Of a stretch of 64,000 nucleotides of DNA, positions 214-19,208 are shown one piece after another. Position 1 is the first letter of the stretch. Each line of letters begins with the position of its first letter. Made by a program: the position numbers and the translations under genes. Under the pieces are notes generated by a model, which worked only from the letters and a program-made list of their open reading frames with translations, ran no database searches and was not told the DNA's origin. The stretch spans positions 1 through 64,000 of the forward strand of contig NZ_SADR02000006.1 of assembly GCF_004010325.2 (NCBI RefSeq), read 5' to 3'. This DNA is from Mesorhizobium sp. M00.F.Ca.ET.216.01.1.1 (GTDB lineage: Bacteria > Pseudomonadota > Alphaproteobacteria > Rhizobiales > Rhizobiaceae).

Positions 214-1245
214 TCAGATCTCTGGGATGTTTTCCCTGAAGATCACCTGCAGCCTGGGCTGGTGCAGTTCGTAGGGCAATCCCCTGACGGCATGGGTCAA
301 GGTGTTGAGCGCTTCGCGGGCCTCGACGCGCGGGTTCTGGTCGATGACCGCGTCGAGCGTGCCGTCGAGCAAAAGGTCCTTGGTGCCTTCCGTCACTTCA
401 TGGCCGAGAAAAACGATCGAATGTTCGCGGCCGCGCTCCTTGAGCGCGCGAGCGATGCCGGTGTTGCCGGCGCCGACATTGTAGATCGCGGCAAGGTTGG
501 AGTGGCGCTCAAGCAAAGCGGAAGCTTCTGAATAGGCCTTTTCCCGGTCGTCGAGCATCTCGCGCATCTCGACGATCTGCAGATTGGGCGATTCCTCCGT
601 CAGTATGTGGCGGAAGCCCATCTCGCGTTCCTCATGGCCGCGATAGGACAGCGAGCCGGCGAACAGCGCGACCTTGCCCGGATGCCCGGTGCCCATGAAG
701 CGGTTGAGCAGGTAGCCGGCGAGACGGCCGGCGGCACGGTTATCGATGCCGATGTAAGCGACCCGCGGTACGTGCAGGATGTCTGAGGCGATGGTGACGA
801 CCTTGACGTCGTTGGCCGACAGTGAGCGGATCGCTTCGCGGACCGTCGGGTGGTCGAGCGCGATCACGCCGACGCCTTGTGTGCGGCCGCGCAATTCCTG
901 CAGCAGCCGGGCAAGGCGGTCGGGATTGAAGCCTTCGATCGTGGCGACATGCACGTCGAGATCAGGCCTGGAGAGCGCCTGCGCCTCGATGTGGCGATGC
1001 AGCATCTTGATGAAGGAATTGGTGCCGGCAGGCAGCGCGAAGTCGAGCCGGATGACATCGCCAGGCAGGGCCCTTTGCGGCGGCGCTCCGTTCGGGCCTT
1101 CCGCTATGTAGCCAAGCCGCTGCGCCATCTCGATCACGATTTCGCGCGTGCGTGCCCGCACACCCGGGCGGTTGTTGAGCACACGGTCGACCGTGGCGGC
1201 GGAAACGCCGGCTTCCCGGGCTATGTCTGTCAGGGTTGACCGCAC
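214..1245 (-). CDS. LacI-family transcriptional regulator
   Basis: 343 aa DNA-binding repressor or activator of the LacI/GalR family. The N-terminal helix-turn-helix is classical (LTDIAREAGVSAATVDRVLN, residues 5-24), followed by a hinge and a periplasmic-binding-protein-like sensor domain, complete to the family length. The start is GTG at 1245, the only start in frame: an upstream ATG at 1260 is followed by a stop two codons later, and GAGGT lies about 8 bases before the GTG. It is transcribed away from the sugar transporter block that begins at 1607 and is its most likely regulator; the ligand is probably the transported sugar or a metabolite of it. No operator was recognised with confidence in the divergent gap. 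Confidence 0.9.
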   Translation of the reverse strand: MRSTLTDIAREAGVSAATVDRVLNNRPGVRARTREIVIEMAQRLGYIAEGPNGAPPQRALPGDVIRLDFALPAGTNSFIKMLHRHIEAQALSRPDLDVHVATIEGFNPDRLARLLQELRGRTQGVGVIALDHPTVREAIRSLSANDVKVVTIASDILHVPRVAYIGIDNRAAGRLAGYLLNRFMGTGHPGKVALFAGSLSYRGHEEREMGFRHILTEESPNLQIVEMREMLDDREKAYSEASALLERHSNLAAIYNVGAGNTGIARALKERGREHSIVFLGHEVTEGTKDLLLDGTLDAVIDQNPRVEAREALNTLTHAVRGLPYELHQPRLQVIFRENIPEI

Positions 1246-3300: not shown

Positions 3301-4161
3301 ATGAAGCGCTCCATTCCTTTTGAGATATTCCGCTATGCCGCGATCCTGGCGGCGATGGCGGTGACGCTGGTGCCAATCCTGTGGATGGTGTCGATGGCCT
3401 TCAAGCCGATCGCCGAATGGTCGGCGACCGGCGCCGAGCTGACCTGGTGGCCGAAGAACCCGACGCTCAGCAATTTCCGCTTCGTCTTCGGCGAGTCGAC
3501 CAACAATCTCATCGTCGCGCTCGACCGCACCGCGCTGAAGCCGATCGCCTCGTCGCTATTGTCGGCGGTGTTCGGAACGGCGATCGCCATGTCGGCCGGC
3601 ACCTCCGCCGCCTACGGGCTGTCGCGCTTCGGCTCGGGCCAGAACCTGCCGCTTGCGTTGATCCAGCTCAGGCTGTTTCCGCCGATGGCGGTCATGATCC
3701 CTGTCATGATCATGTGGTCCTTCCTCAATTTCACCGACAGCTGGTGGGGTCTCGCGCTGATCTACGGCATCGTCACGCTGCCCTTCGCCTTCTGGCTGAT
3801 GAAGACCTTCTTTGACGATATGCCGCGCGAGATCGAGGAGGCCGCACTCGTCGAGGGCTGTTCGCGGCTGCGGGTCTTCACCCGCATCACGCTGCCGATG
3901 ATGCGCGCGCCTTTGGCAAGTGCAGCACTCTTCGTCTTCATCCTCAACTGGTCGGACTATCTGATCGCGCTGCTGCTGACGACGCGCGAATGGGTGACGA
4001 TCCCGGTCTACATGGCCTCGCTGTCGTCCTCGATGACCGGACAGCTCTACGGTGCCAAGGCCGCGCTCGGCCTGATCGCTGCCGTGCCGCCCGTCATCAT
4101 GGGCGTCGCCATCCAGCGCCACCTCGTGCGCGGGCTGACGTTCGGAGCGCTCAAGCAATGA
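3301..4161 (+). CDS. Carbohydrate ABC transporter permease (MalG-type)
   Basis: 286 aa inner-membrane permease with about six hydrophobic segments. The EAA loop, the contact with the ATPase, is seen as [20 protein letters not shown] near residues 177-196. The ATG at 3301 is preferred; a GTG at 3253 lies inside the stem of the upstream hairpin and would add 16 charged residues. It is one half of the translocation pore with the product of the next gene, with which it overlaps by ATGA. The order binding protein, permease, permease, ATPase, ATPase is that of CUT1 carbohydrate importers. Confidence 0.88.
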
Positions 4162-5117: not shown

Positions 5118-6205
5118 GCACCATCCACCTGCAGAACCTGGTCAAGAAATTCGGCGACTTCACCGCGCTGAAGACGATGGACCTCGCCATCGCCGACGGC
5201 GAGTTCATGGCGCTGCTCGGGCCGTCCGGCTGCGGCAAGTCGACGACGATGAACATGATCGCCGGCATGGAAGAGCCGACCAGCGGCAAGATACTGTTCG
5301 GCGACCGCGACATGGCCGGTGTGCCGATGGGGCGGCGCGGCGTCGGCTTCGTCTTCCAGAATTACGCGATCTTCACCCATATGAGCGTGCGGCAGAACCT
5401 CGCCTACGGCCCGAAGATGCGCGGCGCGGCGAAGGCCGAGATCGACCGCCGCGTCGGCACTATCGCCGAGATGCTGCAACTGACGCCGCTGCTCGACCGC
5501 AAGGCCGACAGGCTGTCGGTCAACATTTTGCAGCGGGTGGCAATCGGCCGTTCGACGATCATGGAGCCGGCGATCTTCCTCTTGGACGAGCCGCTGTCCA
5601 ATGTCGACGCCGCCTTCCGGGCGGTGATGCGGACCGAACTGAAGCAATTGCAGCGCCAGTTCCGGCAGACCATGGTCTATGTCACCCATGACCAGCTCGA
5701 AGCCATGACCATGGCCGACCGTATCGCGGTGATGGACCATGGCATTCTGCAGCAGGTCGGCACGCCGCTCGAGGTCTACAACGATCCGGCCAATGTCTTC
5801 GTCGCGCGGTTCATCGGCGCGCCCGGCATGAACCTCCTCAAGGGCAGGCCGGCAGAGAGTGACCGTGGTCTGGTCATCGACCTCGGGCCGCTTGGCGCGA
5901 CACCGCCGCTGCCGGCCGGGATTGCTGACACCGTACGCCGCGCCCGCGGCGAAGTGTTTTACGGCTTTCGCCCGGAGCAGGTGACATTGGTCGAAAGCGG
6001 CAGCGGCCTGTCGATGCCGGTGAGCTTCGTCGAGCGGATTGGCGCGCGCACCATTGTCCATCTCGGCGAGGGTGAGACCGCGGTGAAGGCGGTGTTCGAG
6101 AACGATGTCGGGCTGGCGATCGGGCAAACCGCCGTTATCGCCCCGGCCGAACCGTCAGTGCGCGTCTTCGACGCTGCTGCCGGCCGGGCTATGAGAGCGG
6201 GCTGA
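5114..6205 (+). CDS. ABC transporter ATPase 1 of a pair, with degenerate signature motif
   Basis: 363 aa MalK/UgpC-like ATPase with a C-terminal regulatory OB region. Walker A (GPSGCGKST, 36-44), the Q-loop (Q82), Walker B (LLDEP, D158/E159), the D-loop (SNVDA) and the switch histidine (H192) are all intact. The signature motif is not: LSGGQRQ is replaced by LSVNILQ (134-140). The gene overlaps the second permease by ATGA and is followed after 4 bases by a second, different ATPase, so a heterodimer is likely. Its own Walker motifs would pair with the normal signature of the partner; its degenerate signature would pair with the partner's altered Walker B. Rhizobial glycerol importers likewise use two unlike ATPases. 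Confidence 0.88.
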   Translation: MSTIHLQNLVKKFGDFTALKTMDLAIADGEFMALLGPSGCGKSTTMNMIAGMEEPTSGKILFGDRDMAGVPMGRRGVGFVFQNYAIFTHMSVRQNLAYGPKMRGAAKAEIDRRVGTIAEMLQLTPLLDRKADRLSVNILQRVAIGRSTIMEPAIFLLDEPLSNVDAAFRAVMRTELKQLQRQFRQTMVYVTHDQLEAMTMADRIAVMDHGILQQVGTPLEVYNDPANVFVARFIGAPGMNLLKGRPAESDRGLVIDLGPLGATPPLPAGIADTVRRARGEVFYGFRPEQVTLVESGSGLSMPVSFVERIGARTIVHLGEGETAVKAVFENDVGLAIGQTAVIAPAEPSVRVFDAAAGRAMRAG

Positions 6206-6209
6206 GACC

Positions 6210-7301
6210 ATGGCCGATATAATCTTTCGCAATGTGACGAAACGCTATGGCAGCACTCTCGCTGTCGACGACGCCTCGTTCATGGTCAACGACAATGAGT
6301 TCTTCTGCTTCTTCGGGCCGCCGCTGTCGGGCAAGTCGACGCTGCTGCGGCTGGTGCTCGGGCTGGAGACCCCGGACACAGGCGAGATCCTGATCGGCGG
6401 CAAGCCGGTCAACGCGGTGTCGCCGGCCGAGCGCAACGTCGCCATGGTGTTCCAGAACCTGGCGCTGTTTCCGCATATGAGCGCGCTCGACAATGTCCGC
6501 TTTCCGCTTGTCGAACGCAGGGTCGCCGAGGCCGAGATCGAAAAGCGCGTCGCCGATGTCGCGACCAAGCTGCATATCGGTCATATCCTGCACAAGCCGC
6601 CGGCGCAGCTTTCGGGCGGTGAGCGGCAGCGCGTGGCGATCGCTCGCGCGCTGGTGCGAGACCCGGCCGCCTATCTGATGGACGACCCGATTTCGGCGCT
6701 CGACGCCCGGCTGCGCGAGGAGACGCGCGTCGAGCTGAAGCGCATCCAGCGCGAGCTCGGCAAGACGCTGGTCTTTGTCACTCACGACCAGGAAGAGGCG
6801 ATGTCGGTCGCCGACCGCATGGCCATCCTGGAGAGCGGCAGGATCAGGCAGATCGGCGCGCCGGCCGAGATCTACGACCGCCCAGCCAGCACCTATGTGG
6901 CGCGGCTGCTCGGTTCGCCGATGATGAACATATTGAAATCGGTGCGCGGCGAGGGTGGCGTCGAGGCCGCCGAAGGCACGATCCGCATTGCGGATGCGGC
7001 TGCTCCGGCCGATGCCGTCGAGATCGGGGTCAGGCCGGAAGATATCAAGGTGCGGCCCTGGTCTGATGGGGGAGTATCAGAGGGGGGAATATCGGTTGGG
7101 GGTGCGGGCCGCCCGGCGCGGGTGTTCGAGGTCGAGCCGCTCGGCGGCTATACCGTGGTGACACTCGTCGCCGGGCAGGCGCGACTGAGAGCGCTGCTGC
7201 GCGGCCAACCCGACATCAGGCCAGACGCGATGGTGGCGATATCCTGTGAGCCAGGCCGCGTGCATTATTTCGGGCAGAGCGGGGGAGCGCTGGCGCGATG
7301 A
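6210..7301 (+). CDS. ABC transporter ATPase 2 of a pair, with Walker B Glu-to-Asp change
   Basis: 363 aa, the same length and fold as the preceding ATPase. Walker A is GPPLSGKST (36-44), the signature is canonical (LSGGERQ, 134-140) and the switch histidine is H192. The catalytic Walker B glutamate is replaced by aspartate (LMDDP, D158/D159). The C-terminal OB-like region contains a glycine- and serine-rich insertion, roughly residues 286-300, encoded by a G-run-rich stretch (7068-7108). It is the last transporter gene of this set; its stop overlaps an upstream in-frame start of the oxidoreductase. With ATPase 1 it should power the importer encoded from 1607. Confidence 0.87.
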   Translation: MADIIFRNVTKRYGSTLAVDDASFMVNDNEFFCFFGPPLSGKSTLLRLVLGLETPDTGEILIGGKPVNAVSPAERNVAMVFQNLALFPHMSALDNVRFPLVERRVAEAEIEKRVADVATKLHIGHILHKPPAQLSGGERQRVAIARALVRDPAAYLMDDPISALDARLREETRVELKRIQRELGKTLVFVTHDQEEAMSVADRMAILESGRIRQIGAPAEIYDRPASTYVARLLGSPMMNILKSVRGEGGVEAAEGTIRIADAAAPADAVEIGVRPEDIKVRPWSDGGVSEGGISVGGAGRPARVFEVEPLGGYTVVTLVAGQARLRALLRGQPDIRPDAMVAISCEPGRVHYFGQSGGALAR

Positions 7302-7336
7302 CAGCGACCGCAAGGAACAAGCTTCCGGAGGATCAG

Positions 7337-8425
7337 ATGGCAAGCAACGGTTTCGAGCCGGACGTGAAAGTCCGCACCAAGGAATACAAGATCGGCTGCG
7401 TCGGCGCCGGTATGATCATGGCCGAATGCCATCTTGCCGCCTATCATGAGGCCGGTTTTCCAGTGGTGGCGATCGCCTCGCGCACCAAGGCCAGCGCCGA
7501 GAAGGTCGCCAAGCGCTGGGGCATCCCGACCGTCCACGACACGCCACAACAGCTGATCGAGGACACAAATGTCGAGATCATCGACCATGCGTTTCCGCCG
7601 GACCAGCAGCCGGCGCTGATCCGCCATGCGCTGAAGCAGCAGCACATCAAGGCGATCCTGGCGCAGAAGCCACTGGCGCTGTCGCTCGACGAGGCCATCA
7701 AGTTGCGCGACGAGGCGGCCAGAGCCGGAAAGATCCTCTCGGTCAACCAGAACATGCGTTACGACCAGTCGATGCGCGTCTTGAAGCAGATCATCGACAG
7801 CGGCGCGCTCGGCGATATCGTCTTCGCGCAGATCGACATGCATGCGATCCCGCATTGGCAGACCTTCCTGGAAGATTATGACCGGCTGACGCTCGCCAAC
7901 ATGAGCGTGCATCATCTCGACGTGCTGCGCTTCCTGTTCGGCGATCCGGACGAGATCACGACGCTGACCCGCAAGGACCCGCGCACGCGCTTCGATCACT
8001 CCGACGGCATCACCGTGTCGACGATCAAGTTCCCGTCCGGCGTGCTCGCCGTGTCGCTGGAGGACGTCTGGTCCGGCCCGCGCCAGGAAGGCTACAAGGA
8101 CGACCAGCACATCAACTGGCGCGTCGACGGCACAAAGGGCGTCGCCAAGGGCACGATCGGCTGGCCGACCGGTTCTGCCTCGACGCTCACCTATGCCTCG
8201 ACCGAGACCACCGGCGGCGAATGGGTCACGCCCAGCTGGGACACGATGTGGTTCCCGCATGCCTTCATCGGCGTCATGGAGCAGCTCCAGCACGCAGTGA
8301 AGACCGGCACGCCGCCGGCGCTTTCCGTCGCCGACAACGTCAAGACCATGGCGCTGGTCGAAGCCGGCTATCGCTCGATCGACAAGGGCCGCACGGTCAG
8401 GCTTTCCGAAGTCTCGACAGACTGA
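7337..8425 (+). CDS. Gfo/Idh/MocA-family NAD(P)-dependent oxidoreductase
   Basis: 362 aa cytoplasmic dehydrogenase of the glucose-fructose oxidoreductase / inositol dehydrogenase / MocA family, which oxidises hydroxyls of sugars and cyclitols. The Rossmann fingerprint GAGMI lies near residue 22; the usual EKP motif appears as QKPLA with the lysine kept; the SVHHLDVLRFLFG segment holds the catalytic histidine region. I chose the ATG at 7337, which has GGAGG 5 bases upstream; an ATG at 7298 overlapping the previous stop (ATGA) is the alternative and adds 13 residues. It sits between a sugar importer and a sugar isomerase, so it probably performs the first oxidation of the imported compound. Confidence 0.88.
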   Translation: MASNGFEPDVKVRTKEYKIGCVGAGMIMAECHLAAYHEAGFPVVAIASRTKASAEKVAKRWGIPTVHDTPQQLIEDTNVEIIDHAFPPDQQPALIRHALKQQHIKAILAQKPLALSLDEAIKLRDEAARAGKILSVNQNMRYDQSMRVLKQIIDSGALGDIVFAQIDMHAIPHWQTFLEDYDRLTLANMSVHHLDVLRFLFGDPDEITTLTRKDPRTRFDHSDGITVSTIKFPSGVLAVSLEDVWSGPRQEGYKDDQHINWRVDGTKGVAKGTIGWPTGSASTLTYASTETTGGEWVTPSWDTMWFPHAFIGVMEQLQHAVKTGTPPALSVADNVKTMALVEAGYRSIDKGRTVRLSEVSTD

Positions 8426-8467: not shown

Positions 8468-9382
8468 ATGATGCAGGCAGGTATCTTCACGGGCTATTTC
8501 CCGTACGGCCTCAAGGAAACCGCGCAGAAGATCCGCGCGCTCGATTTCAACACGGTGCAGCTCGACCTGCATTTTAGAGATGTCGATCTGTCGGCCGGGC
8601 AGATCACCAAGGACAAGGCGAGGACCGTGCGCGACACGTTCCGCGATCACAACCTGCCGATCTGCTGCGTGTCGGGCTACACCAACATCATTCATCCGGA
8701 CAAGGCCGAGCGCGAGAGGCGGGTCGGCTATTTGAAGGAGATAGTCCGTAACGCGCGCCATTTCGGCACCCCTTACGTGATCTCGGAGACCGGCACCTAC
8801 AACACCGAATCCGACTGGGTGCATCACCCGAAGAACAAGACCGAGGAAGGTTTCGAGGAGTGCCGCAAGGTCATCGCCGACCTTGCCCAGACGGCCTATG
8901 ACCACGGCGCGGTTTTCCTGCTGGAAACCTATGTCAACAATGTCGTCGGCTCGGTCGAAGAGACGGTGAAGATATTCGCGCAGGTCGACCACCCCGGCCT
9001 CGGCCTTTTGATGGACCCGACCAATTATTTCGAGACGCACAACATCGACAGGATGGACCAGATCCTGAATCAGGTGTTCGACACGCTGACCGACAAGATC
9101 AAGATTGCCCACGCCAAGGACGTCAAGCGCTCGGGCGGCGACAAGTCGGAGAAGCACGCCGATATCGGCGACGAGGACGCGCTGGAGAGCCACACTTTCC
9201 GCGGCGTCGGCGAGATCGAGCTGCCGGCGCCGGGCCTCGGTTCGCTGAACTACGACCTCTATCTCAAGCGGCTGGCTGAAAAGCACCCGAACATCCCGGT
9301 CATCATCGAGCACCTTTCGGAGGACGACGTGCCGCGCGCCAAGAAATTCCTCGACGGGAAGTTCCGCGCCAACGGTCTGTGA
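8468..9382 (+). CDS. Sugar phosphate isomerase/epimerase-family TIM-barrel protein
   Basis: 304 aa xylose-isomerase-like TIM barrel (AP_endonuc_2 superfamily), a class that includes inosose dehydratases, ketose epimerases and MocC of rhizopine catabolism. Metal-ligand-type residues can be seen in the YVISETGTYN, FLLETYVNN, LLMDPTN and KIKIAHAKDV segments and in the C-terminal VIIEHL strand. The start has GGGAGGA upstream. It follows the Gfo/Idh/MocA oxidoreductase by 42 bases; that pairing is common in cyclitol and unusual-sugar pathways, where one enzyme oxidises and the other epimerises or dehydrates. The exact reaction cannot be assigned. Confidence 0.85.
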   Translation: MMQAGIFTGYFPYGLKETAQKIRALDFNTVQLDLHFRDVDLSAGQITKDKARTVRDTFRDHNLPICCVSGYTNIIHPDKAERERRVGYLKEIVRNARHFGTPYVISETGTYNTESDWVHHPKNKTEEGFEECRKVIADLAQTAYDHGAVFLLETYVNNVVGSVEETVKIFAQVDHPGLGLLMDPTNYFETHNIDRMDQILNQVFDTLTDKIKIAHAKDVKRSGGDKSEKHADIGDEDALESHTFRGVGEIELPAPGLGSLNYDLYLKRLAEKHPNIPVIIEHLSEDDVPRAKKFLDGKFRANGL

Positions 9383-9447: not shown

Positions 9448-10383
9448 ATGTTGAAGCTTGGATTGAAACTGGCGGCCGCAGCGACTTTGGTGGCAGGCGT
9501 CGCATTCGGCTCGCCGGCGTTGGCGCAGGAGAAGACCTTCTATCTGCTGTCGCATGGCGGTCCGTCGGACGCGTTCTGGATCGACTGGAACGCCGGCGCG
9601 ACCAAGGCGTGCGACCAGCTCAAGGTGACCTGCAAGATCTCCTTCAGCGGTGGCGACATGGCGGCGCAGAAGGAAGCCTTCAACTCGGCACTTGCCGCCA
9701 AGCCGGACGGCATCGCCACCACTTCGGCACAGCCCGGCCTGTGGACAGAGGAAATCAAGGCGGCCAGGGCGGCCGGCATCCCGATCGTGTTCTTCAACAC
9801 CGACGATCCGGCAACCGGGCGGCAGGCTTATGTCGGTGCCGACCTCAAGGAGGCCGGCGTCATCTGGGCCAAGTACCTGGTCGATCACAAGATGGTGAAG
9901 CAAGGCGACAAGGTGTTTCTGCCGGTGGAAGTGCCAGGCGCCAGCTACCAGCAGCTGGAGACTGAAGGCATCGCCAGCGTGTTCGATCCGCTCGGCATCA
10001 AATACGACGTGGTCGATTGCGGCACCGATCCGGCCGGCATCATCGCCAAGATGACCGACTACATGGTGGCCAACAATCCGCCGGCGATCATCGCGCTCGG
10101 TGATTCCGTCGCGGCGAGCGTCAAGCGGGTGTTCGACGGCGCCGGCGTGCCGGCCGGCAAGATCCCGGTCGTCGGCTGGGGCAATTCCAGGGGGACGGCC
10201 GAATCCGTCAAGGCCGGCTTTGTCAATGCGGCTGCTTGGCAGTTCCCGTCGGCGCAAGGCTTCATGCCGGTGGCGTTGCTCGGGCTCGCCGCCTCGGGCG
10301 AACCGATCGGCTACGACATCCACACCTTCAGCCTCTATGACGCATCAAGCGTCGAACCGATCCTGAAGCTCTACGACAAGTGA
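9448..10383 (+). CDS. Sugar ABC transporter substrate-binding protein (RbsB/MocB-like, CUT2)
   Basis: 311 aa periplasmic binding protein of the type-2 (ribose/rhizopine/inositol) class. A Sec signal peptide ends at ALA-QE around residue 26. The start at 9448 has AAGGGAGG immediately upstream; a longer GTG start at 9379 would precede the signal peptide with 23 unrelated residues. It heads a CUT2 importer with the permease and single-domain ATPase that follow. A GC-rich hairpin separates it from the permease. Substrate unknown; the adjoining oxidoreductase, isomerase and aldose-epimerase-like genes suggest a monosaccharide or cyclitol. Confidence 0.87.
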   Translation: MLKLGLKLAAAATLVAGVAFGSPALAQEKTFYLLSHGGPSDAFWIDWNAGATKACDQLKVTCKISFSGGDMAAQKEAFNSALAAKPDGIATTSAQPGLWTEEIKAARAAGIPIVFFNTDDPATGRQAYVGADLKEAGVIWAKYLVDHKMVKQGDKVFLPVEVPGASYQQLETEGIASVFDPLGIKYDVVDCGTDPAGIIAKMTDYMVANNPPAIIALGDSVAASVKRVFDGAGVPAGKIPVVGWGNSRGTAESVKAGFVNAAAWQFPSAQGFMPVALLGLAASGEPIGYDIHTFSLYDASSVEPILKLYDK

Positions 10384-10423: not shown

Positions 10424-11665
10424 ATGGACCAGGCAGTTATGGCAATCACAGCAGAAGACGACGTGCCTGTCGTGAAAAGCAGATCGGGCCTGATGCGCTC
10501 GCCGCAATTCTCATCCTTCGTCATCCTCATCATATTGCTGGCGGTGTTCGCCGTCGCCGACGGCAATTTCCTGTCGCCGCTCAACATCTCCAACATGATG
10601 GCGTTCCTGCCCGAGCTCGGCATCATCGCGCTCGGCATGACGCTGCTTCTGACGGCGGGCGAGTTCGACCTGTCGGTCGGCGCCGTGTTCGGGCTGGCGC
10701 CGGTCGTGGTCATGCTCCTGGTGCAGAACGGCGACGCTGATATCGGCATGGCGCTGCTTGCGGGCCTCCTGCTGTGCGTGGCGATCGGCGCGATCAACGG
10801 GCTGATCGTGACCAAGATCGGCATTTCCTCCTTCCTGGTCACGCTGTCGATGCTGCTCGTCGTGCGCGGGGCAGCACTGTACATCACGCAAGGCTTTCCG
10901 CTGAAATCCTGGAACCAGCCCGGCTTCTTCGTCACGCTCTTGGCCGGCAGCTTCAACATCGGCTCATTCCGGTTCTACACCTCACTGTGGTGGTTCGTCG
11001 GCCTGTCGCTGCTGGCGATCTATGTTCTGCGCTACGCCAAGCTCGGCAACTGGATCAGCGCCATCGGCTCGAACCGCAATGCCGCGGTAGCGCGCGGCGT
11101 GCCCGCCGAAGCGGTCAAGATCTGGCTGTTCATCCTGACCTCGGTGCTGGCAGGGTTGGCCGGCATGATCAGCGCCTTCCGCATCTCGGCCGCTTCGCCG
11201 GTGGCCGGCACCGGCTACGAACTCGAGGTGATCGCCATGGTGGTGGTCGGCGGCACGGCTCTGACCGGCGGGCGCGGCACTATCCTGGGGACGATCGTCG
11301 GCGCGCTGATGCTGCGTAGTATCCGCAACGGCATCGTGCTGATCGGCGTGCCCGGGCTCGCCTACAACATCTTTGTCGGCGTTATCATCCTCGCCATGCT
11401 CATCCTGCACGCTTTGCTGCAGAAGAACGCCCAAGGAGCTAACCATGGAAGTGCTTCGGCTGCAGAACTTGCAAAAATCCTTCGGCAGCGTGCGTGCGCT
11501 GAAGAACGCGTCCTTCGCGCTCAACGAGGGCGAGGTGGTGGCCTTGCTTGGCGACAACGGCGCCGGCAAATCGACGTTGATCAAGGCGATCTCCGGCGTC
11601 TTCCCGGTCGACCGCGGCGACATCTACGTGCGCGGCCAGAAGGTTTCCATCCGCTCGACGCGTGA
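10424..11665 (+). CDS. Sugar ABC transporter permease (RbsC-like), 3' end probably frameshifted
   Basis: Open for 413 codons, but only the first roughly 335 look like a CUT2 permease: about eight to ten membrane segments, the conserved GMTLLLTAGEFDLSVGAVFG segment and the AMVVVGGTALTGGRGTILG segment. After HALLQK the protein turns into an arginine-rich tail that is simply the following ATPase gene read in another frame, a 221-base overlap. A TAA at 11440-11442 in the neighbouring frame is where the gene would be expected to stop, so one indel near 11410-11440 has probably removed the normal end. The membrane domain is intact, so function may survive. The start may be 10424 or the in-frame ATG at 10439. 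Confidence 0.8.
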   Translation: MDQAVMAITAEDDVPVVKSRSGLMRSPQFSSFVILIILLAVFAVADGNFLSPLNISNMMAFLPELGIIALGMTLLLTAGEFDLSVGAVFGLAPVVVMLLVQNGDADIGMALLAGLLLCVAIGAINGLIVTKIGISSFLVTLSMLLVVRGAALYITQGFPLKSWNQPGFFVTLLAGSFNIGSFRFYTSLWWFVGLSLLAIYVLRYAKLGNWISAIGSNRNAAVARGVPAEAVKIWLFILTSVLAGLAGMISAFRISAASPVAGTGYELEVIAMVVVGGTALTGGRGTILGTIVGALMLRSIRNGIVLIGVPGLAYNIFVGVIILAMLILHALLQKNAQGANHGSASAAELAKILRQRACAEERVLRAQRGRGGGLAWRQRRRQIDVDQGDLRRLPGRPRRHLRARPEGFHPLDA

Positions 11666-12221
11666 CGCGATGGACCTCGGCATCGAGACCATCCACCAGG
11701 ACACCTCGCTGGCGCCGGATCTCAGCATCGCGCGCAATCTCTTTCTCGGCCGCGAGCCGGTCAATCTCAAATGGCTGGGCGTATTCGCGCCGCTCGATCT
11801 GGCCAGGCTGCGCGATGCCGCCTCCGCCTTGCTGAAGCGCGTCGGCATCTCGAAAAAGCTCGACGCCGATGCGCTGGTCAGCACGCTTTCCGGTGGTGAG
11901 CGGCAGTCGATCGCCATTTCGCGCGCCATGCAGTTCGCCGCCAAAGTCATCATCCTCGACGAGCCGACCAACAATCTCGGCGTGGAGGAAACGCATGGCG
12001 TGCTGCGCTTCGTCAAGGAGGTGCGCGAGGCCGGTCATTCGGTGCTGCTGATCACCCACAACATCCATCACGTCTTCCAGGTCGCCGACCGCATCATCGT
12101 CATGCGCCGTGGTGAGATCGTCGCAGAGCAGACGGTCGCCGATACCGATCTGCTGACTGTGGAAAGCATCATCACCGGCGCCGACATGTCAGCCCTGCTC
12201 AAGCAAGCGAGAGCGAAGTGA
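11445..12221 (+). CDS. Sugar ABC transporter ATPase, single-domain CUT2 type
   Basis: 258 aa ATPase with Walker A (GDNGAGKST), signature (LSGGERQ), Walker B (VIILDEP) and switch histidine (LITHN). Most RbsA-type ATPases are fused doubles of about 500 residues; this one has a single nucleotide-binding domain, as in fructose-type FrcA systems, and would work as a homodimer. The ATG at 11445 is preceded by AAGGAG with good spacing. It belongs with the binding protein at 9448 and the permease at 10424. Confidence 0.88.
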   Translation: MEVLRLQNLQKSFGSVRALKNASFALNEGEVVALLGDNGAGKSTLIKAISGVFPVDRGDIYVRGQKVSIRSTRDAMDLGIETIHQDTSLAPDLSIARNLFLGREPVNLKWLGVFAPLDLARLRDAASALLKRVGISKKLDADALVSTLSGGERQSIAISRAMQFAAKVIILDEPTNNLGVEETHGVLRFVKEVREAGHSVLLITHNIHHVFQVADRIIVMRRGEIVAEQTVADTDLLTVESIITGADMSALLKQARAK

Positions 12222-12237: not shown

Positions 12238-13419
12238 ATGGTAGAGCTTTACGGCAAAACGCTTTCGCGCCGGCAGGTTTCGGAGCGAGCGGGCGCGCTG
12301 TCGCAATTCGCCGGCGTGCGGCTGATGACGCTGGGCGACGGGGTCGAGCGCGGCATCCGCATGCTTGAATTCCGCACCGGCTCGGGCCTGCGCTTCACCG
12401 CGCTCGTCGACCGGGCGCTTGACATCGCCGACTGCGAGTTCAAGGGCCAGGCGATCGGCTGGCATTCGCCGAGCGGCTTCCGTCACCCAGGCCTGCACGA
12501 CTACGAGGGCGAGCAGGGCCTTGCCTGGGCGCGCTCGTTTTCCGGCCTGCTGCTGACCTGCGGTCTCGACCATATTTTGGGCCGCAGCGAAGTGCCGGCT
12601 GACAGCTACAACTACCCAGGCAAGAAAACCGTTATCCATTCGCTGCATGGTCGCGTCAGCACCATTCCGGCGCGGCTGACCGGTTGTGGCGAGGCGTGGG
12701 ATGGCGACCGCTGCGTGCTGTGGGCCGAAGGCATCGTCCAGCAATCGACGGTGTTCGGCGAGGACCTGCATCTGTTGCGCCGGATCGAAGCCGACGTCGG
12801 CGGCAACGAGATCCGGCTTTCGGACCGCGTCGTCAATCACGGCTTCAGCCGGACGCCGCATATGTATTTCTACCACATCAATGTCAGCCATCCGGTGCTG
12901 GACGAAGGCTCGCGCTATCTGGCGCCGATCCGGGACGTGGTGTGGGCCGGGCATGCCGGCGAGCGCTACCAGGCGCAGAAGGTCGGCTACCGCACGGTGC
13001 CGGCGCCGCAATTGGGTTTCAGCGAGCAGGTCTGGCAGCACGAGCTCGGCGCCGACGGTGCGGGCGAAGTGCCGGTGGCCGTGGTCAACGACCGGCTTGG
13101 CCTCGGCTTCGAGGTGGTCACGCGAAAAGACCAGTTGCCCTGCAGCTATCAATGGCAGAATTTCCAGGCCGGGCAGTATGCACTGGGCATAGAGCCGTCG
13201 ACGCATCATGTGCTCGGCAATCTCGCGGCGCGCCAACGCGGCGAGATGATCTGGCTGGAATATGGTGAAAGCCGTTCCTACGATGCGGTGTTCCGGGTTC
13301 TCGACGGCGCCGGCAGCATCGCGGCTGCTGAAAGCAGGATCGCAGCGATTGCCAGGCAACCGCAGCAGGATTATCCGCAGCCGTCGGGCAATTTCCCGAG
13401 ATTGGCGGGCAGGGCATGA
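12238..13419 (+). CDS. DUF4432-family aldose-1-epimerase-like protein
   Basis: 393 aa protein of the DUF4432 family, a galactose-mutarotase-like beta-sandwich often found beside sugar importers. Recognisable segments include a VDRALDIAD strand near residue 60, GWHSPSGF, FSGLLLTCGLDH, and the central MYFYHINVSHP strand with HxN, a likely sugar-contact motif. The start lies 16 bases after the ATPase stop, so it is the last gene of the sugar block. A role in interconverting anomers or a similar isomerisation of the imported sugar is a family-based inference; no specific substrate is known to me. Confidence 0.85.
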   Translation: MVELYGKTLSRRQVSERAGALSQFAGVRLMTLGDGVERGIRMLEFRTGSGLRFTALVDRALDIADCEFKGQAIGWHSPSGFRHPGLHDYEGEQGLAWARSFSGLLLTCGLDHILGRSEVPADSYNYPGKKTVIHSLHGRVSTIPARLTGCGEAWDGDRCVLWAEGIVQQSTVFGEDLHLLRRIEADVGGNEIRLSDRVVNHGFSRTPHMYFYHINVSHPVLDEGSRYLAPIRDVVWAGHAGERYQAQKVGYRTVPAPQLGFSEQVWQHELGADGAGEVPVAVVNDRLGLGFEVVTRKDQLPCSYQWQNFQAGQYALGIEPSTHHVLGNLAARQRGEMIWLEYGESRSYDAVFRVLDGAGSIAAAESRIAAIARQPQQDYPQPSGNFPRLAGRA

Positions 13420-13543: not shown

Positions 13544-14635
13544 ATGACAGGCATGACGAAAAAGCGCGACTACAGCCTGGTCGGCGAGAGCACGCGCAGG
13601 GCGATTGAGACGGGACTGGCTTCGGCCGAATGGTATCATACCGACGTCTCCCGCAAGGCGATAAAGGAACTGATGCAGCGTTCCGACGGCCCGGCGATCC
13701 GCGACACGGTCATCTGGATCGTCGCTATCCTGGCTTCCGCTGCCGGCGGCATTTATTTCTGGGGCAGCTGGTGGTGCGTGCCGTTCTTCTTCGTCTACGG
13801 CCTGCTCTATGGCTCGTCCAGCGACTCGCGCTGGCACGAATGCGGCCATGGCACCGCCTTCCGCACGCGCTGGATGAACGATGTGGTCTACCACATCGCC
13901 AGCTTCATGCTGATGCGCAACCCGGTGACCTGGCGCTGGAGCCACGCCCGCCATCACACCGACACCATCATCGTCGGACGCGATGCCGAAATTGCCGTGA
14001 TGCGCCCACCGGACCTTTTGCGCGCGGCACTCGCCTTCACCGGGATCCTCGATTTTCGCTATTCGCTACCGGCGCTGGTACGCCAGGCGTTTGGCAAGCT
14101 CACGCCTGATGAGAAAAGCTACGTTCCCGAGATGGAACAGCACAAGGCCGTCATCGCCGCGCGCTGGCATGTTGTCATCTACATCGCGACGATAGCGCTT
14201 GCTGTCTACACGCGGTCTTGGCAGCCGCTGGTGCTCGTCGGGCTGCCGCGCCTCTACGGCACCTGGCACATGGTGATGACCGGACTGCTGCAGCATATTG
14301 GTCTCGCCGACGACGTCGTCGACCACCGGCTCAACACCCGCACCGTCTACATGAACCCGATCAGCCGCTTCATCTATTGGAACATGAACTACCACGTCGA
14401 GCATCACATGTTCCCGATGGTACCCTATCATGCGCTGCCCCGGCTGCACGAGCTGATCAAACACGATTTGCCCGAGCCGAACCCGTCGATATGGCATGCC
14501 TATCGCGAGGTCTGGCCGGTCCTGCTCAAGCAGCTCAAATACGAGGACTACTTCCTCAAGCGCGAGCTGCCGCCGACGGCGCGGCCCTACCGTGGCGAGT
14601 TCCACGACGTGAACATGTCGGCAGCGGCGGAATAG
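13544..14635 (+). CDS. Fatty-acid-desaturase-fold oxygenase, MocD-like
   Basis: 363 aa integral-membrane di-iron enzyme. The three histidine boxes of the desaturase/alkane-hydroxylase family are present: HECGH (98-102), HARHH (134-138) and HVEHH (284-288), with membrane segments between. Rhizopine catabolism uses a similar protein, MocD, with the ferredoxin MocE in a proposed oxidative demethylation of a methylated inosamine. Here the next gene, 41 bases on, is a MocE-type ferredoxin, which supports an oxygenase role rather than lipid desaturation. GGAGGTC precedes the ATG at 13544. No ferredoxin reductase (MocF) is present nearby. A true fatty acid desaturase is the main alternative. Confidence 0.82.
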   Translation: MTGMTKKRDYSLVGESTRRAIETGLASAEWYHTDVSRKAIKELMQRSDGPAIRDTVIWIVAILASAAGGIYFWGSWWCVPFFFVYGLLYGSSSDSRWHECGHGTAFRTRWMNDVVYHIASFMLMRNPVTWRWSHARHHTDTIIVGRDAEIAVMRPPDLLRAALAFTGILDFRYSLPALVRQAFGKLTPDEKSYVPEMEQHKAVIAARWHVVIYIATIALAVYTRSWQPLVLVGLPRLYGTWHMVMTGLLQHIGLADDVVDHRLNTRTVYMNPISRFIYWNMNYHVEHHMFPMVPYHALPRLHELIKHDLPEPNPSIWHAYREVWPVLLKQLKYEDYFLKRELPPTARPYRGEFHDVNMSAAAE

Positions 14636-14676
14636 GTTTCGCCGGCAACATGTCGTTGGCAGGACAGGAGGCAGAG

Positions 14677-14991
14677 ATGGCCGATTGGGTTGAAGCGTGC
14701 GCCGTGGACGATGTGGACGAAGAGGATGTCATCCGCTTCGATCATGGCGGCCGCACCTTCGCGATCTATCGTTCCCCGGACGATGAGTTTTTCGCCACCG
14801 ACGGGTATTGTACCCATGAGCAAGCGCATCTGGCCGATGGGCTGGTGATGGACGACATCATCGAATGCCCCAAGCACAATGGCCGCTTCAACTACAAGAC
14901 CGGCCAGGCCAAGGGTGCACCTGTCTGCGTCAACCTCAGGACATATCCGGTCAAGGTCGAGGCCGGCAAGGTGATGATCCAGATCGGGTAA
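14677..14991 (+). CDS. mocE: MocE-family Rieske-type 2Fe-2S ferredoxin
   Basis: 104 aa soluble electron carrier. Rieske ligands are clear: C45-T-H47 and C64-P-K-H67, in the CTHEQAHL and CPKHNGRF segments. I chose the ATG at 14677, which has AGGAGG upstream (14666-14671), over the in-frame ATG at 14650. It lies between the desaturase-fold oxygenase and a PanB homologue, and most likely passes electrons to the oxygenase. The symbol is used in the family sense (MocE-type ferredoxin); it is not evidence that rhizopine is the substrate. Confidence 0.85.
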   Translation: MADWVEACAVDDVDEEDVIRFDHGGRTFAIYRSPDDEFFATDGYCTHEQAHLADGLVMDDIIECPKHNGRFNYKTGQAKGAPVCVNLRTYPVKVEAGKVMIQIG

Positions 14992-15030
14992 CCAGCCTGC
15001 CATAATACGCAACATAAGGAACGAAAATCG

Positions 15031-15831
15031 ATGAGCCGGAAGAGACCCACGATTGCAGACCTGCGCGCCATGAAAGGCAAGCGGCAGCTGACGATGCTGC
15101 GCGTGCTGACCATGGACGAGGCCGAAGCCGCCGAAAGAGCCGGGATCGATATCGTTTCGGTGCCGGCGGAGCTGGTGCTCAATCCGCAATATCGCGATGC
15201 GGCGCCGAGCCTGTTCACCATGCCGGGTGACAATTTCTACGAGATCGGCACCGCCGACGATTTCGTGCGGTGGGCGTTCCGGCTCTACAAGGCCAGCGCC
15301 GACGCGGTCTATTGCAGCGCCGGCTTCGCCACCGTCAAGCGGCTGGCCGACGACGCGATTCCCGTGATCGGCCATGTCGGCCTGATCCCGTCGCGCGCCA
15401 CCTGGACCGGCGGCTTCAAGGCCGTCGGCAAGACCGCCAACACCGCCATGCAGGTGTACGAGGCGGTGAAGCAGTATGAGGCCGCCGGCGCCATCGGCGC
15501 CGAGATCGAGGTGGTGCCGGTCGAGGTGGCCAAGGCGATCTCGGAACGAACCTCGCTGATCATGCTGTCGATGGGGGCGGGCACCGGCTGTGACGCGCAA
15601 TATCTGTTTGCCGACGACATCCTAGGCCAGAACCGCGGCCACATGCCCCGCCATTCCAAGGTCTATCGCAATTTCGCCGCCGAATACGACCGCCTGCAGG
15701 CGGAACGCGTCGCCGCTTTTTCCGAATATGTCGCCGACGTGAACAGCATGGCCTATCCCGAAGACCGGCATGTGGTGCATATGGATCAGGCTGAGCTCAG
15801 CCTGTTCATGAAAAGGATCGACGGCGCGTGA
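15031..15831 (+). CDS. Diverged ketopantoate hydroxymethyltransferase (PanB) homologue
   Basis: 266 aa TIM-barrel protein of the PanB/PEP-mutase-like superfamily. The C-terminal half is clearly PanB-like (GHVGLIP; GGFKAVGK; EVVPVEVAKAI; GAGTGCDAQ; GHMPRHSKVY). The N-terminal metal site is not: where PanB has VGDS there is VPAE, and where PanB has KIEGG there is YCSAG, so one metal-ligand aspartate, the lysine and the following glutamate appear lost; GDNFYE may keep the second aspartate. It also lacks some residues between the first two sites. It is therefore unlikely to make ketopantoate. It sits between MocE and PurU and overlaps purU (GTGA), so a reaction on a one-carbon or branched-ketoacid intermediate is plausible. 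Confidence 0.78.
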   Translation: MSRKRPTIADLRAMKGKRQLTMLRVLTMDEAEAAERAGIDIVSVPAELVLNPQYRDAAPSLFTMPGDNFYEIGTADDFVRWAFRLYKASADAVYCSAGFATVKRLADDAIPVIGHVGLIPSRATWTGGFKAVGKTANTAMQVYEAVKQYEAAGAIGAEIEVVPVEVAKAISERTSLIMLSMGAGTGCDAQYLFADDILGQNRGHMPRHSKVYRNFAAEYDRLQAERVAAFSEYVADVNSMAYPEDRHVVHMDQAELSLFMKRIDGA

Positions 15832-16709
15832 AACCTGACAACAATGATGCGATTGGCGGTGTGGGGCCAGTCCATATCCTCACTCTTTCGTGCGAAGACC
15901 GGCCGGGGATCGTCGCCGCGGTCACGACTGAGCTTGCCGCGAGCGGAGCCAACATTGTCGAAAGCAGCCAGTTCTGGGATCGGCAGACCGGCCGCTTTTT
16001 CATGCGGATTGCATTCACCAGCCCGGCAGGCTCGACGAAGGATGATGTGGAGCGGACCCTGAAATCGTCCATCGACCGGTTCGGGATGAAAACCGCGCTG
16101 GTCGATCAGGTTCGTCGCCCGAAGATCATCGTCATGGTGTCGAAATTCGACCACGCACTTCTGCATCTGCTTTACCAGATCAGGGTCGGCTGGCTGAATG
16201 CCGAGGTCGCCGCAGTCGTCTCCAACCATGAAGATGCCCGGCGCTTCGCCGAGCTGGAGGGCATCCCCTTCCACCATTGGCCGACGACCAGGGAAAATAA
16301 GGCCGAACAGGAGCAGAAATTGCTGGATCTCGTGCAGGAGACGGGATCCGAACTCGTCGTCCTGGCGCGCTATATGCAGGTCTTCTCGAAAGGCCTGTCG
16401 GACCGGCTGTTCGGGCGGGCGATCAACATCCACCATTCCTTCCTGCCGAGCTTCAAGGGCGCAAAGCCGTACCACCAGGCCTTCGACCGCGGCGTCAAGC
16501 TGATCGGCGCAACGGCGCACTACGTCACATCAGACCTCGACGAAGGCCCGATCATCGAACAGGAAACCGAACGCGTCACACATGCGATGAGCGCTGAGGA
16601 TTTCGTGGCCGTTGGCCGCGACATAGAAAGCCGCGTGCTGGCACGGGCCGTAAAGCTGCATCTCGAGGCCCGTGTCATGCTCAACGGCCACAAGACAATC
16701 GTCTTCTAG
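15828..16709 (+). CDS. purU: Formyltetrahydrofolate deformylase
   Basis: 293 aa enzyme that hydrolyses 10-formyl-tetrahydrofolate to formate and free tetrahydrofolate. An N-terminal ACT domain (roughly 14-95, with CEDRPGIVAAVT) precedes a formyltransferase catalytic domain. The catalytic triad segments are complete: INIHHSFLPSFKG (N200, H202) and TSDLDEGP (Asp near 238). Translation starts at GTG 15828, which overlaps the PanB-like stop, so the two are translationally coupled. PurU in a catabolic operon usually marks a pathway that generates formaldehyde or methylene-tetrahydrofolate, such as oxidative demethylation. Confidence 0.92.
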   Translation: MKPDNNDAIGGVGPVHILTLSCEDRPGIVAAVTTELAASGANIVESSQFWDRQTGRFFMRIAFTSPAGSTKDDVERTLKSSIDRFGMKTALVDQVRRPKIIVMVSKFDHALLHLLYQIRVGWLNAEVAAVVSNHEDARRFAELEGIPFHHWPTTRENKAEQEQKLLDLVQETGSELVVLARYMQVFSKGLSDRLFGRAINIHHSFLPSFKGAKPYHQAFDRGVKLIGATAHYVTSDLDEGPIIEQETERVTHAMSAEDFVAVGRDIESRVLARAVKLHLEARVMLNGHKTIVF

Positions 16710-16728: not shown

Positions 16729-18210
16729 CTACGCCTGCCACGCCCCACTGGCGAGCGTGGCGTAGAGCGCCTCGGCGTCCCTACCCAGAGGACGATCACC
16801 TTTGAGCGGTGGAACGAGCGCGCGCACGGCCGCATGAATTGCCGCGGTGGCCGGCGCCAATGTCAGCCCGTCGCGCAGGTCAATCGCCTGAGCAGCGGCC
16901 ATCAGTTCAAAGGCGATCAGCCGCCGCCACAGCACGATCATGTCCGCGCATTTCGAAATAGCCAGAGGTGTTTGCGTCGCATGATCCTCGACGCCTTCTG
17001 AGACCGGCAGGAAGTCGAGCATCACCGGATTGGCCTTGTGGCGAATCGCGGCGAGGATTGCGGTCACCGTCTTCTGCAGCGGCACGAAACCGGCCGACGT
17101 GCCACCAAGCGGCGACAGATATCTGGGCAGGCCGTTGCGGCCAGAGCCTGTGAGCTGGATGAAACGAGCAGCGCAGGCGGCTGCACTCTGCGCGATTGCC
17201 AGGCCGAGCGTCTCGAAGGCCAGCGCCAGCGACGCGGTGTGGAAATTGCCTGTCGACAGCACCAGCTCGTCATCACCCAGCACCAGCGGGTTGTCGGCGG
17301 CGGCGGTGAGTTCGATCTCGACCGCTAGCCGCGCCTGATCGATCGCCTGGATCAGGGCGCCATGGATCGACGGCATGCAGCGAATCGACAGCGGATCTTG
17401 CAAACTCGTCGGCGCTGGCGCCTCGTCGCGGGCAAGCAGATCGCGCAAGCCCTTTGCCGCCAGTTGCTGGCAGGCAGCCGGCCGTGCCAGGTGCAGACGC
17501 GGATCGAGGAGCGTGCGGTTGGCGCCGATGCCTTCCATGGTCAGCGCACCCGTCTGCTGTTGCTGCGCGAAGGCGGACAGTGCATCGACCACCGCCAGCG
17601 CGCCGCTGCCGGCTGACACCGCCGAGGCGTTGATCAGCGACAACCCGTCCTTCGGCGCGAGGCTGACTGGAGCGAGGCGCGCCATCGCCAGCGCCTTGGC
17701 CGCCGGCATGCGCCGCCCCTGATAGTCGGCTTCGCCGTCGCCGATCAGCATACGGCCAAGTGCTGCCATCAGCACCAGATCGCCGGCGCCGATCGAGCCA
17801 AGCGACGGCATCACCGGATGAACGCCGGCATTGAGCGTGTCGACGAGTGCGACAAACACGTGAGGCGAAATGCCTGAACCACCGACCGAAAGCATTGCCG
17901 CACGGGCAAGCATCGTCGCGCGTACGATCTCTTGCGGCAGCGGGTCACTGACCGCGCCGCTGCGTCCCTCCAGCAACTGGCGCTGGAAGGCGCTGGCGTC
18001 GCCGCTGACCGACGTGCCGAGATTGGCACCGAGCCCGGTGTTCAGCCCATAGATCTGCTGGCCGGACGCAGCGGCGCCATCGAGCACTTTTCGCGCTTTG
18101 TCCAGCCTCTGCATGACCGCTGGTGCTATCTCCACCTTGCGGCTGCCGCGGGCAACGGCCGCGACATCCTCGACGCTGACGCCATCACCAGTGAGGACGA
18201 GCGCGCTCAT
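16729..18210 (-). CDS. Aromatic amino acid lyase (HAL/PAL) family protein lacking the MIO serine
   Basis: 493 aa, full length for the histidine/phenylalanine ammonia-lyase family. The catalytic tyrosine loop is present (YGLNTGLG, Tyr54). The Ala-Ser-Gly triad that cyclises to the MIO electrophile in GSxGASGDL is replaced by GSIGAGDL (138-145), with no serine, so the prosthetic group cannot form in the usual way. Other usually conserved segments also differ (LINASA for LINGTQ; RCMPSIHG for RCxPQxHG). It shares an ATGA overlap with the upstream cyclodeaminase-family gene and converges on purU with only 19 bases between. It may be a non-MIO lyase or an enzyme with different chemistry; histidase activity is not supported. 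Confidence 0.82.
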   Translation of the reverse strand: MSALVLTGDGVSVEDVAAVARGSRKVEIAPAVMQRLDKARKVLDGAAASGQQIYGLNTGLGANLGTSVSGDASAFQRQLLEGRSGAVSDPLPQEIVRATMLARAAMLSVGGSGISPHVFVALVDTLNAGVHPVMPSLGSIGAGDLVLMAALGRMLIGDGEADYQGRRMPAAKALAMARLAPVSLAPKDGLSLINASAVSAGSGALAVVDALSAFAQQQQTGALTMEGIGANRTLLDPRLHLARPAACQQLAAKGLRDLLARDEAPAPTSLQDPLSIRCMPSIHGALIQAIDQARLAVEIELTAAADNPLVLGDDELVLSTGNFHTASLALAFETLGLAIAQSAAACAARFIQLTGSGRNGLPRYLSPLGGTSAGFVPLQKTVTAILAAIRHKANPVMLDFLPVSEGVEDHATQTPLAISKCADMIVLWRRLIAFELMAAAQAIDLRDGLTLAPATAAIHAAVRALVPPLKGDRPLGRDAEALYATLASGAWQA

Positions 18211-19208
18211 GCGAAGCGCAGCCTCTGGCCGATGCCTTGCGCCTGCGCCTTGGCCAGCATCGCCTTGCCCAGCGCGATGTCGGAGAGCGACAGGCCGCGA
18301 TGCCAGAACAGGATCGTCTCCTCGTCGCTCTCGCGCCCCACCTTGCGCCCGGCGGCGATCTGGCCAAGTTCGGCGTACAGCGTCTCTTCACTGAGCCGCC
18401 AGGTCTCGACATGGGCGCGCAGCGAACCGAACTTGCCGGTCTTGCACTGGCCCCAGTCGTCGACGACGATCTTCTGCATGATGTCGGTGAGCGACAATTC
18501 CACCGCGCTCATTGTGCCGTAGGGCACCACCAGCGCACCGGGCTTGATCCATTCCGTCTTGAGCAGCGGCTGCGGTTCCGGCAGCCGCGAGGCCTCGACG
18601 ACGATATCGGCACCCTCGACGCATGAGCGCCAGTCGGCGACCGCCGTGACCGGCTTGCCGAGATCGGCGGACAGTTTTGCGGCAAAGCCGTCGCGGCTTT
18701 CCGGCCGGCGCGAATGCACACGGATCTCGTCGAAGTCGAAGAGATGGTCGAGCAGGCGCACGTTCCAGTAGGCGGTGCCGCGCGCGCCGACATGGCCGAG
18801 CACCTTCGATGTCTTTTTCGCCAAGTGTTTTGCGCCGATGGCGGTTACGGCGCCGGTGCGCATGTCGGTGATGACGGTGGCGTCGAGGATGGCGTGCAGC
18901 GTGCCGGTGCGCGGATCGAACAGGTTGAGGATGCCGAATTCCGACGGCAGGCCATGCAGGTAATTGTCGACATAGTCGCCAACGATCTTGACGCCGGCTG
19001 CATCGAGCGGCGCGACGTAGCCGCGCAGGACATTGAAATGGCCGTGGAAGGAGGGGTCCGGCTCGAGATGGACGCGGGGTTCGATCACCGTCTGGCCGTT
19101 GCCTTGCGCCACCAGGCCGGCCTCAACCGCATCGATGATTTCGGCATCGGTCATATCAAGCGCTTCGATGTCGAGCGCGTTGAGATAGTCGATATAGATG
19201 GGCTTCAT
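18207..19208 (-). CDS. Ornithine cyclodeaminase / mu-crystallin family protein
   Basis: 333 aa NAD(P)-binding protein of the OCD/mu-crystallin family, whose members include ornithine cyclodeaminase, ketimine reductases and alanine dehydrogenase. The N-terminal half has the substrate-domain segments NVLRGYV, VKIVGDYVDNY and GTLHAILDATVITDMRTGA; the Rossmann domain begins near VLGHVGARGTAYWN. Start ATG at 19208. The 3' end overlaps the lyase-family gene by ATGA, so the two are co-expressed and probably work on successive intermediates of an amino acid or amine. Which of the family's reactions it performs is not readable. Confidence 0.85.
   Translation of the reverse strand: MKPIYIDYLNALDIEALDMTDAEIIDAVEAGLVAQGNGQTVIEPRVHLEPDPSFHGHFNVLRGYVAPLDAAGVKIVGDYVDNYLHGLPSEFGILNLFDPRTGTLHAILDATVITDMRTGAVTAIGAKHLAKKTSKVLGHVGARGTAYWNVRLLDHLFDFDEIRVHSRRPESRDGFAAKLSADLGKPVTAVADWRSCVEGADIVVEASRLPEPQPLLKTEWIKPGALVVPYGTMSAVELSLTDIMQKIVVDDWGQCKTGKFGSLRAHVETWRLSEETLYAELGQIAAGRKVGRESDEETILFWHRGLSLSDIALGKAMLAKAQAQGIGQRLRFA

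Follow-up and report, generated by a model that had tools for sequence, protein, structure and literature searches.

Genes of the locus and their protein families

The window analysed in this study, a stretch of 64,000 nucleotides at positions 1 to 64,000 of contig NZ_SADR02000006.1 from the draft genome (7.24 Mb) of Mesorhizobium sp. M00.F.Ca.ET.216.01.1.1, contains four co-directional genes that encode a MocD-like oxygenase, a MocE-type ferredoxin, a diverged relative of the ketopantoate hydroxymethyltransferase PanB and the deformylase PurU. In the best reading of this locus, which we hold with evenly divided confidence, these proteins would oxidatively remove the O-methyl group from a sugar or cyclitol and dispose of its carbon as formate in a folate-linked manner. 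The four genes, with scores followed by the cut-off of the respective family, are:

13544..14635, plus strand: MocD-like membrane di-iron oxygenase, probable O-demethylase (363 amino acids; FA_desaturase 122.6 bits, cut-off 29.7)
14677..14991, plus strand: MocE-type Rieske ferredoxin, electron donor (104 amino acids; TIGR02377 189.5 bits, cut-off 136.15)
15031..15831, plus strand: PanB-like protein, candidate enzyme for the transfer of formaldehyde to folate (266 amino acids; Pantoate_transf 138.5 bits, cut-off 28.7)
15828..16709, plus strand: PurU, formyl-tetrahydrofolate (formyl-THF) deformylase (293 amino acids; TIGR00655 331.6 bits, cut-off 285.95)

The spacing of 41 bases between mocD and mocE and of 39 bases between mocE and the PanB-like gene, the GTGA overlap of the latter with purU and the assignment to the four families had all been described in an earlier, sequence-only reading of the window and are confirmed here. 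MocE and PurU both pass the curated cut-offs of their families. MocD contains all three His boxes (HECGH, HARHH and HVEHH), which in their strict form are found in 105 of 126 MocD-like sequences. Its predicted structure, with a predicted local distance difference test (pLDDT) score of 83, has no close solved relative; the best structural matches are two chains of chloroplast FtsHi complexes with a template modelling score of about 0.55, and a profile search of PDB sequences retrieved only AlkB (E 0.027). The sequence-only reading had also stated that no ferredoxin reductase lies nearby, which holds for the listed genes between positions 7298 and 20497 but not beyond, where mocF is found in the operons of relatives and in a second mocD-mocE-mocF set of the same genome. 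This set is located on another contig (C33) together with a LacI gene and a transporter and its MocD is 70% identical to that of the window, where the PanB-like gene follows mocE and no mocF adjoins.

The PanB-like protein remains below both PanB cut-offs (TIGR00222, 100.8 of 207.55 bits; NF001452, 122.3 of 272 bits) and its Pfam match covers the profile of 259 positions only from position 92 onwards. Two other panB genes of the genome, whose products are 30–32% identical to it, pass both cut-offs (295.2 and 319.7 bits; 348 and 368 bits) and each adjoins a panC that passes its own, whereas no panC neighbours the PanB-like gene. Since two such genes, each beside panC, reside elsewhere in the genome, the PanB-like gene is apparently not needed for pantothenate synthesis. 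Despite this divergence it shares the fold of PanB, as the closest structures to its predicted model (pLDDT 94) are ketopantoate hydroxymethyltransferases (Z 23.5–26.6), with the top three chains at Z of about 26 and 26–31% identity over 212–214 residues, followed at Z of about 15 by lyases and mutases of the same superfamily. His115, Glu158 and Glu160 are invariant across 46 PanB-like relatives, and two of them, His115 as the His of GHxGL and Glu160 as the Glu before VP, also match both genomic PanBs. In contrast, the Lys-Leu-Glu site of PanB is replaced in the PanB-like family, where an invariant Tyr is found at this position and the Glu is missing. Lys112, Glu114 and two Asp residues are ligands in the E. 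coli enzyme; the two Asp positions were matched by eye only. In public records the PanB-like genes of three plasmid loci (L229, L230, L271) are labelled as 3-methyl-2-oxobutanoate hydroxymethyltransferase, a label not supported by the low family scores of the copies in the window and in a further plasmid locus (L268).

Distribution of the conserved set and of PurU and FolD

Matches to the PanB-like gene were found in 35 of 397 genomes of the order (E 1e-50), in 21 of 385 genomes of the class (E 1e-35) and in 19 of 398 genomes of a phylum sample (E 1e-35), all 19 inside the class. Three sets of loci were compared: the best 80 of 307 named loci for this gene, here called Mesorhizobium-type (78 are titled Mesorhizobium, with 89–95% identity); 47 loci of the order, left from 54 listed matches after removal of seven comprising the window gene and close copies from the genus; and 25 further loci from the class and phylum searches, with one partial match (G147) left out. 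Neighbours were counted within 8 kb, and oxygenases, MocE, MocF and PurU on the same strand only. The Mesorhizobium-type loci contain mocD in all 80 cases, mocE in 74 and mocF in none. Among the 47 order loci, 32 have mocD, 11 an FA_hydroxylase-type oxygenase and 41 either of them, accompanied by mocE (32), mocF (13) and a LacI gene (35), and the 25 class loci include either oxygenase in 11, mocE in eight, mocF in four, iolB in three, iolC in two and iolD in one. Four of the six order loci missing from the oxygenase count either carry MocD on the other strand (L148, L149) or end early, one being a 3-kb contig (L152) and the other having a distance of about 220 bases between the gene start and the end of its contig (L158); the remaining two (L161, L168) have no such neighbour. 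As a negative control, 14 loci of 12.9 to 19.9 kb each that exceed the cut-off of the rhizopine binding-protein model NF052284, and which are no test of rhizopine itself, contain neither mocD, mocE and mocF nor an FA_hydroxylase-type oxygenase, a PanB-like gene or PurU. The conserved unit is an oxygenase with MocE, often MocF, and the PanB-like protein, commonly near LacI regulators and ATP-binding cassette (ABC) transporters.

The PanB-like gene is shared by two unlike oxygenase families, PF00487 and PF04116, the latter confirmed by Pfam in four loci (L147, L160, L162, L165) and by similarity in the rest, and both types occur together in three (L143, L147, L210). Because one PanB-like family stands beside two families of oxygenases, what these loci have in common is more likely a product than the skeleton of a substrate. 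Six Mesorhizobium-type loci (L063, L083, L084, L085, L086, L103) lack mocE between mocD and panB, and may use a ferredoxin from elsewhere. Among the class loci, eleven PanB-like genes (L213–L223), matching at about 32–42% identity, form a side branch, and three loci (L206, L207, L208) belong to small AT-rich genomes (about 1.4 Mb; 30–32% GC in the stretch) in which mocD directly precedes the PanB-like gene, followed in L206 by DUF1800 and DUF1501 genes.

PurU shows a different distribution. The four-gene order had been expected to be conserved as a unit across Rhizobiales, but purU lies near the PanB-like gene in only 13 of the 80 Mesorhizobium-type loci, one of the 47 order loci and one of the 25 class loci, and its distribution on the tree leads us to reject an old origin of the four genes as a unit. 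In a rapidly built tree of 87 PanB-like genes, purU requires five changes, at least three of which are forced by supported branches, compared to a mean of 13.3 after shuffling; all 14 rows with purU fall inside one supported clade of 33 rows, and six outgroup rows are without it. In 12 of the Mesorhizobium-type loci that carry purU, its match begins on the final base of that to panB, just as it does in the window, and in the thirteenth it begins eight bases downstream. No purU remnant was detected by blastn in loci lacking the gene; in the 53 of these where the next gene was found, its match begins 16–223 bases past the panB match in 52 and 1488 bases past it in one. As judged from this distribution, PurU is a later and recurrent addition to the conserved set that makes its purpose visible.

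The strongest clue to this purpose is provided by three plasmid loci from two genera with the order mocD-mocE-mocF-panB-purU-folD, located on pMHb of M. huakuii 7653R and on plasmids of Rhizobium sp. CB3171 and CB3060. In the latter two, the PurU following the PanB-like protein is of a more distant type, 55% identical to that of the window, and both PurU and FolD of CB3171 score above their curated cut-offs; two different types of PurU plus FolD recur beside the PanB-like gene. All six PanB-like loci sampled from 277 plasmid records with a match (L229, L230, L268–L271) carry mocD-mocE-mocF-panB, and three of them purU-folD. Among 303 plasmid records matching PurU, five were examined, pMHb included. 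Two of the others contain folD together with electron transfer flavoprotein-ubiquinone oxidoreductase genes (L272, L274), a third contains genes for aminomethyl transferase and for methylene-THF reductase (L275), and in the fourth PurU lies near iolG, a TIM-barrel gene and a sugar transporter (L273). The purU-folD pair of R. jaguaris (L276) has no moc match within the stretch read, and in one order locus (L147) a PurU match lies about 7 kb away. Apart from a third match of 27%, the genome of the window has one other clear PurU, which is 54% identical. Its gene has as close neighbours on the same strand a DAO-type gene and a sarcosine oxidase alpha gene that encodes a folate-binding GCV_T domain; a partial FolD match is also found there.

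A putative route from methyl group to formate

In the proposed mechanism, the operon would import a methylated sugar or cyclitol, whose O-methyl group would be removed oxidatively by MocD, with electrons supplied by MocE and a reductase encoded elsewhere. As a di-iron oxygenase, MocD should hydroxylate the methyl group, which would then leave as formaldehyde or in hydroxymethyl form. The PanB-like protein, whose parent enzyme PanB handles a one-carbon unit on tetrahydrofolate (THF), would load this carbon onto THF to form 5,10-methylene-THF, which FolD, encoded outside of this operon, would convert to 10-formyl-THF, from which PurU would free formate and regenerate THF, while the demethylated product would enter sugar or inositol breakdown via dehydrogenase and TIM-barrel enzymes. 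Since FolD and PurU cover the later steps and the PanB-like gene is the sole candidate at the folD loci for the step between, we infer from position and family that its product may transfer formaldehyde to folate. We thus propose, tentatively and with somewhat less than even confidence, that the family constitutes a new enzyme that has lost the keto-acid half-reaction of PanB and kept the one-carbon half, to load formaldehyde or a hydroxymethyl group, which may come straight from the oxygenase product, onto THF as the stand-alone methylene-THF-forming partner of di-iron sugar or cyclitol O-demethylases in Alphaproteobacteria. We found no published description of a folate-loading role for the PanB family, and literature searches pairing PanB with PurU, Rieske, desaturase, inositol or demethylation showed no such module among the papers listed. 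A search combining MocD, MocE and rhizopine returned nothing.

The proposed sequence of steps has counterparts in known systems. Together, FolD and PurU convert methylene-THF to THF with release of formate, and in the excerpts of the respective reports, the operons purU-mabO-folD of the nicotine plasmid pAO1 and glyA-soxBDAG-purU place PurU behind a demethylating enzyme, giving formate (PMC3891541, PMC3691474). The locus, and with FolD its relatives, would share this arrangement through the putative demethylase MocD. Unlike these cases, where according to the same excerpts the flavoenzyme itself makes methylene-THF, a di-iron oxygenase would here act in conjunction with a separate PanB-like protein. 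The O-demethylation of 6-O-methyl-D-galactose by marine bacteria, as far as it is covered in the part of the report consulted, is likewise an oxidative sugar demethylation giving formaldehyde, but catalysed by a P450 instead of a MocD-type or FA_hydroxylase-type oxygenase (PMC10033563); the formaldehyde is presumably dealt with differently in these bacteria.

Several observations weigh against this reading. PurU is absent from 67 of the 80 Mesorhizobium-type and from 46 of the 47 order loci, and the proportion of plasmid loci with folD is biased, as the three were found partly by following PurU, either because the match reached it or because it was the query. The eleven side-branch loci contain the PanB-like gene without an oxygenase or MocE, and, conversely, the second mocDEF set of the genome has no PanB-like match in a stretch of 19.5 kb. 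Formaldehyde also reacts with THF non-enzymatically, no folate site was located in the PanB-like protein, and DUF4432 and sugar-acid genes of other loci would suit sugars as well as inositols.

A rather unlikely alternative retains the O-demethylation but has the PanB-like protein work without folate, as a formaldehyde aldolase or retro-aldolase on the carbon skeleton, with PurU and FolD clearing spontaneously formed methylene-THF. The aldol-type transfer to a keto acid catalysed by PanB, the lyases and mutases that follow PanB in the structural comparison and the predominance of PanB-like loci without PurU would suit such a role, whereas the invariant Tyr and missing Glu are contrary to the old keto-acid site, and the association with two oxygenase families and varied downstream pathways fits better with a shared one-carbon product. 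It is still less probable that the module hydroxylates sugars or cyclitols without demethylation and that PurU merely returns THF for purine balance. Although membrane di-iron enzymes catalyse many hydroxylations, the recurrence of two PurU types and FolD beside the PanB-like gene and the location of the other genomic PurU with a demethylating enzyme speak against this reading.

We consider it very unlikely that the locus is the catabolic system for the rhizopine 3-O-methyl-scyllo-inosamine itself. The oxygenase and ferredoxin belong to the same families as MocD and MocE of the rhizopine mocDEF genes of S. meliloti L5-30 and R. leguminosarum, with which the locus also shares a regulator (LacI or other), sugar-type transport and a link to inositol breakdown, and Bahar and colleagues reportedly presented in 1998 a model connecting rhizopine catabolism to the latter. 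The resemblance of upstream genes noted in the sequence-only reading holds for a MocA-like and a MocC-like gene but not for MocB, as the binding protein reaches only 63 of the 420 bits required by the rhizopine model, to which no match was found in the whole genome at 1e-60. Moreover, the PanB-like protein and PurU are outside the known rhizopine set, MocF is not part of the operon, the regulator is of the LacI type instead of MocR and the gene order differs from mocDEF, mocR, mocBA and mocC as given in the part of PMC10107442 consulted. Rhizopine as substrate is thus not supported. One of the loci over the NF052284 cut-off (L247) adjoins iolC and iolD matches, and this model may also catch inositol transporters. 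Finally, the membership in the Pfam family FA_desaturase could suggest MocD to be a lipid desaturase with unrelated neighbours, which appears extremely improbable in light of its conserved linkage to MocE and the PanB-like gene, its low score for DesB (33.5 of 500 bits) and its distance on the tree from the DesA-like protein of the genome (DesA, 375.5 of 500 bits). Of the interpretation offered previously, the core leading from demethylation via folate to formate has gained strength from the folD-containing loci, the PurU beside sarcosine oxidase genes and a locus with the PanB-like gene and PurU beside iolG, iolC, iolD and iolB, while the four-gene unit and the rhizopine substrate have not stood.

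The putative demethylation route has broader implications. Legumes commonly contain pinitol and other O-methyl cyclitols, and we found no paper naming the route by which rhizobia dispose of the methyl group of these compounds; the module offers a testable one, with a candidate protein for its formaldehyde step. Because public records call PanB-like genes pantothenate enzymes, gene-based predictions of vitamin B5 synthesis could err where they are present. If the PanB-like protein indeed loads formaldehyde onto folate, it would be useful in one-carbon engineering.

Neighbouring genes and possible substrates

The following genes surround the set:

214..1245, minus strand: LacI-type regulator, possibly of the cluster (LacI and Peripla_BP_4)
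7298..8425, plus strand: Gfo/Idh/MocA dehydrogenase (PF01408, 63.8 bits)
8468..9382, plus strand: TIM-barrel (xylose-isomerase-like) enzyme, MocC-like (PF01261, 96.6 bits)
9448..10383, plus strand: sugar-type ABC binding protein (Peripla_BP_4, 149.4 bits; score for the rhizopine model as above)
10424..11665, plus strand: ABC permease, whose open reading frame overruns its expected end (BPD_transp_2 to residue 326 of 413)
11445..12221, plus strand: ABC ATPase (ABC_tran, 111.6 bits)
12238..13419, plus strand: DUF4432 protein, possibly a sugar epimerase (PF14486, 310 bits)

Sugars or cyclitols are the likely substrates, as judged from the sugar-type transporters and from the LacI, Gfo/Idh and TIM-barrel genes. 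In one locus (L205), the genes follow in the order binding protein, permease, ATPase, Gfo, TIM, MocE, TIM, PanB-like, Gfo, iolG, purU, iolC, iolD, iolB, with the four iol products and PurU passing their cut-offs. Family-tested inositol genes are also found in L204 and L226, and probably in L139 (an IolD match of 46%, by similarity). Other loci contain an IlvD/EDD dehydratase, either with gluconolactonase (L210) or by itself (L224), or GH4 (L212). Since inositol genes are present in some loci and sugar-acid or GH4 genes in others, more than one O-methyl carbohydrate may be processed by the module. Homologues of mocDEF in R. mesoamericanum were upregulated 1.53–2.11-fold with Mimosa exudate, in which pinitol was the most concentrated compound (145 µM), and in the portion of the report consulted its authors suggest rhizopine use (PMC5789663); demethylation of pinitol would be our interpretation. 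For a mocDEF cluster of P. syringae, the consulted part of the report gives no clear substrate (PMC5132102).

The DUF4432 gene lies immediately 5' of mocD in 60 of the 80 Mesorhizobium-type loci. A frameshift or lost stop near the 3' end of the permease gene is likely, as its open reading frame enters the ATPase gene by about 220 bases in another frame and the Pfam match stops at residue 326 of 413. Between positions 11900 and 17200, promoter-like sites are at the level of shuffled sequences (1 versus 1.0 expected) and terminator-like sites near it (7 versus 4.0, standard deviation 2.2). Upstream of the sugar-type transporter, a second ABC transporter (SBP_bac_1, two permeases and two ATPases) spans positions 1514–7301. 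On the other side, a convergent pair on the minus strand (16729–19208), encoding a HutH-like aromatic amino acid lyase and a member of the ornithine cyclodeaminase family, adjoins the set in 66 of the 80 Mesorhizobium-type loci.

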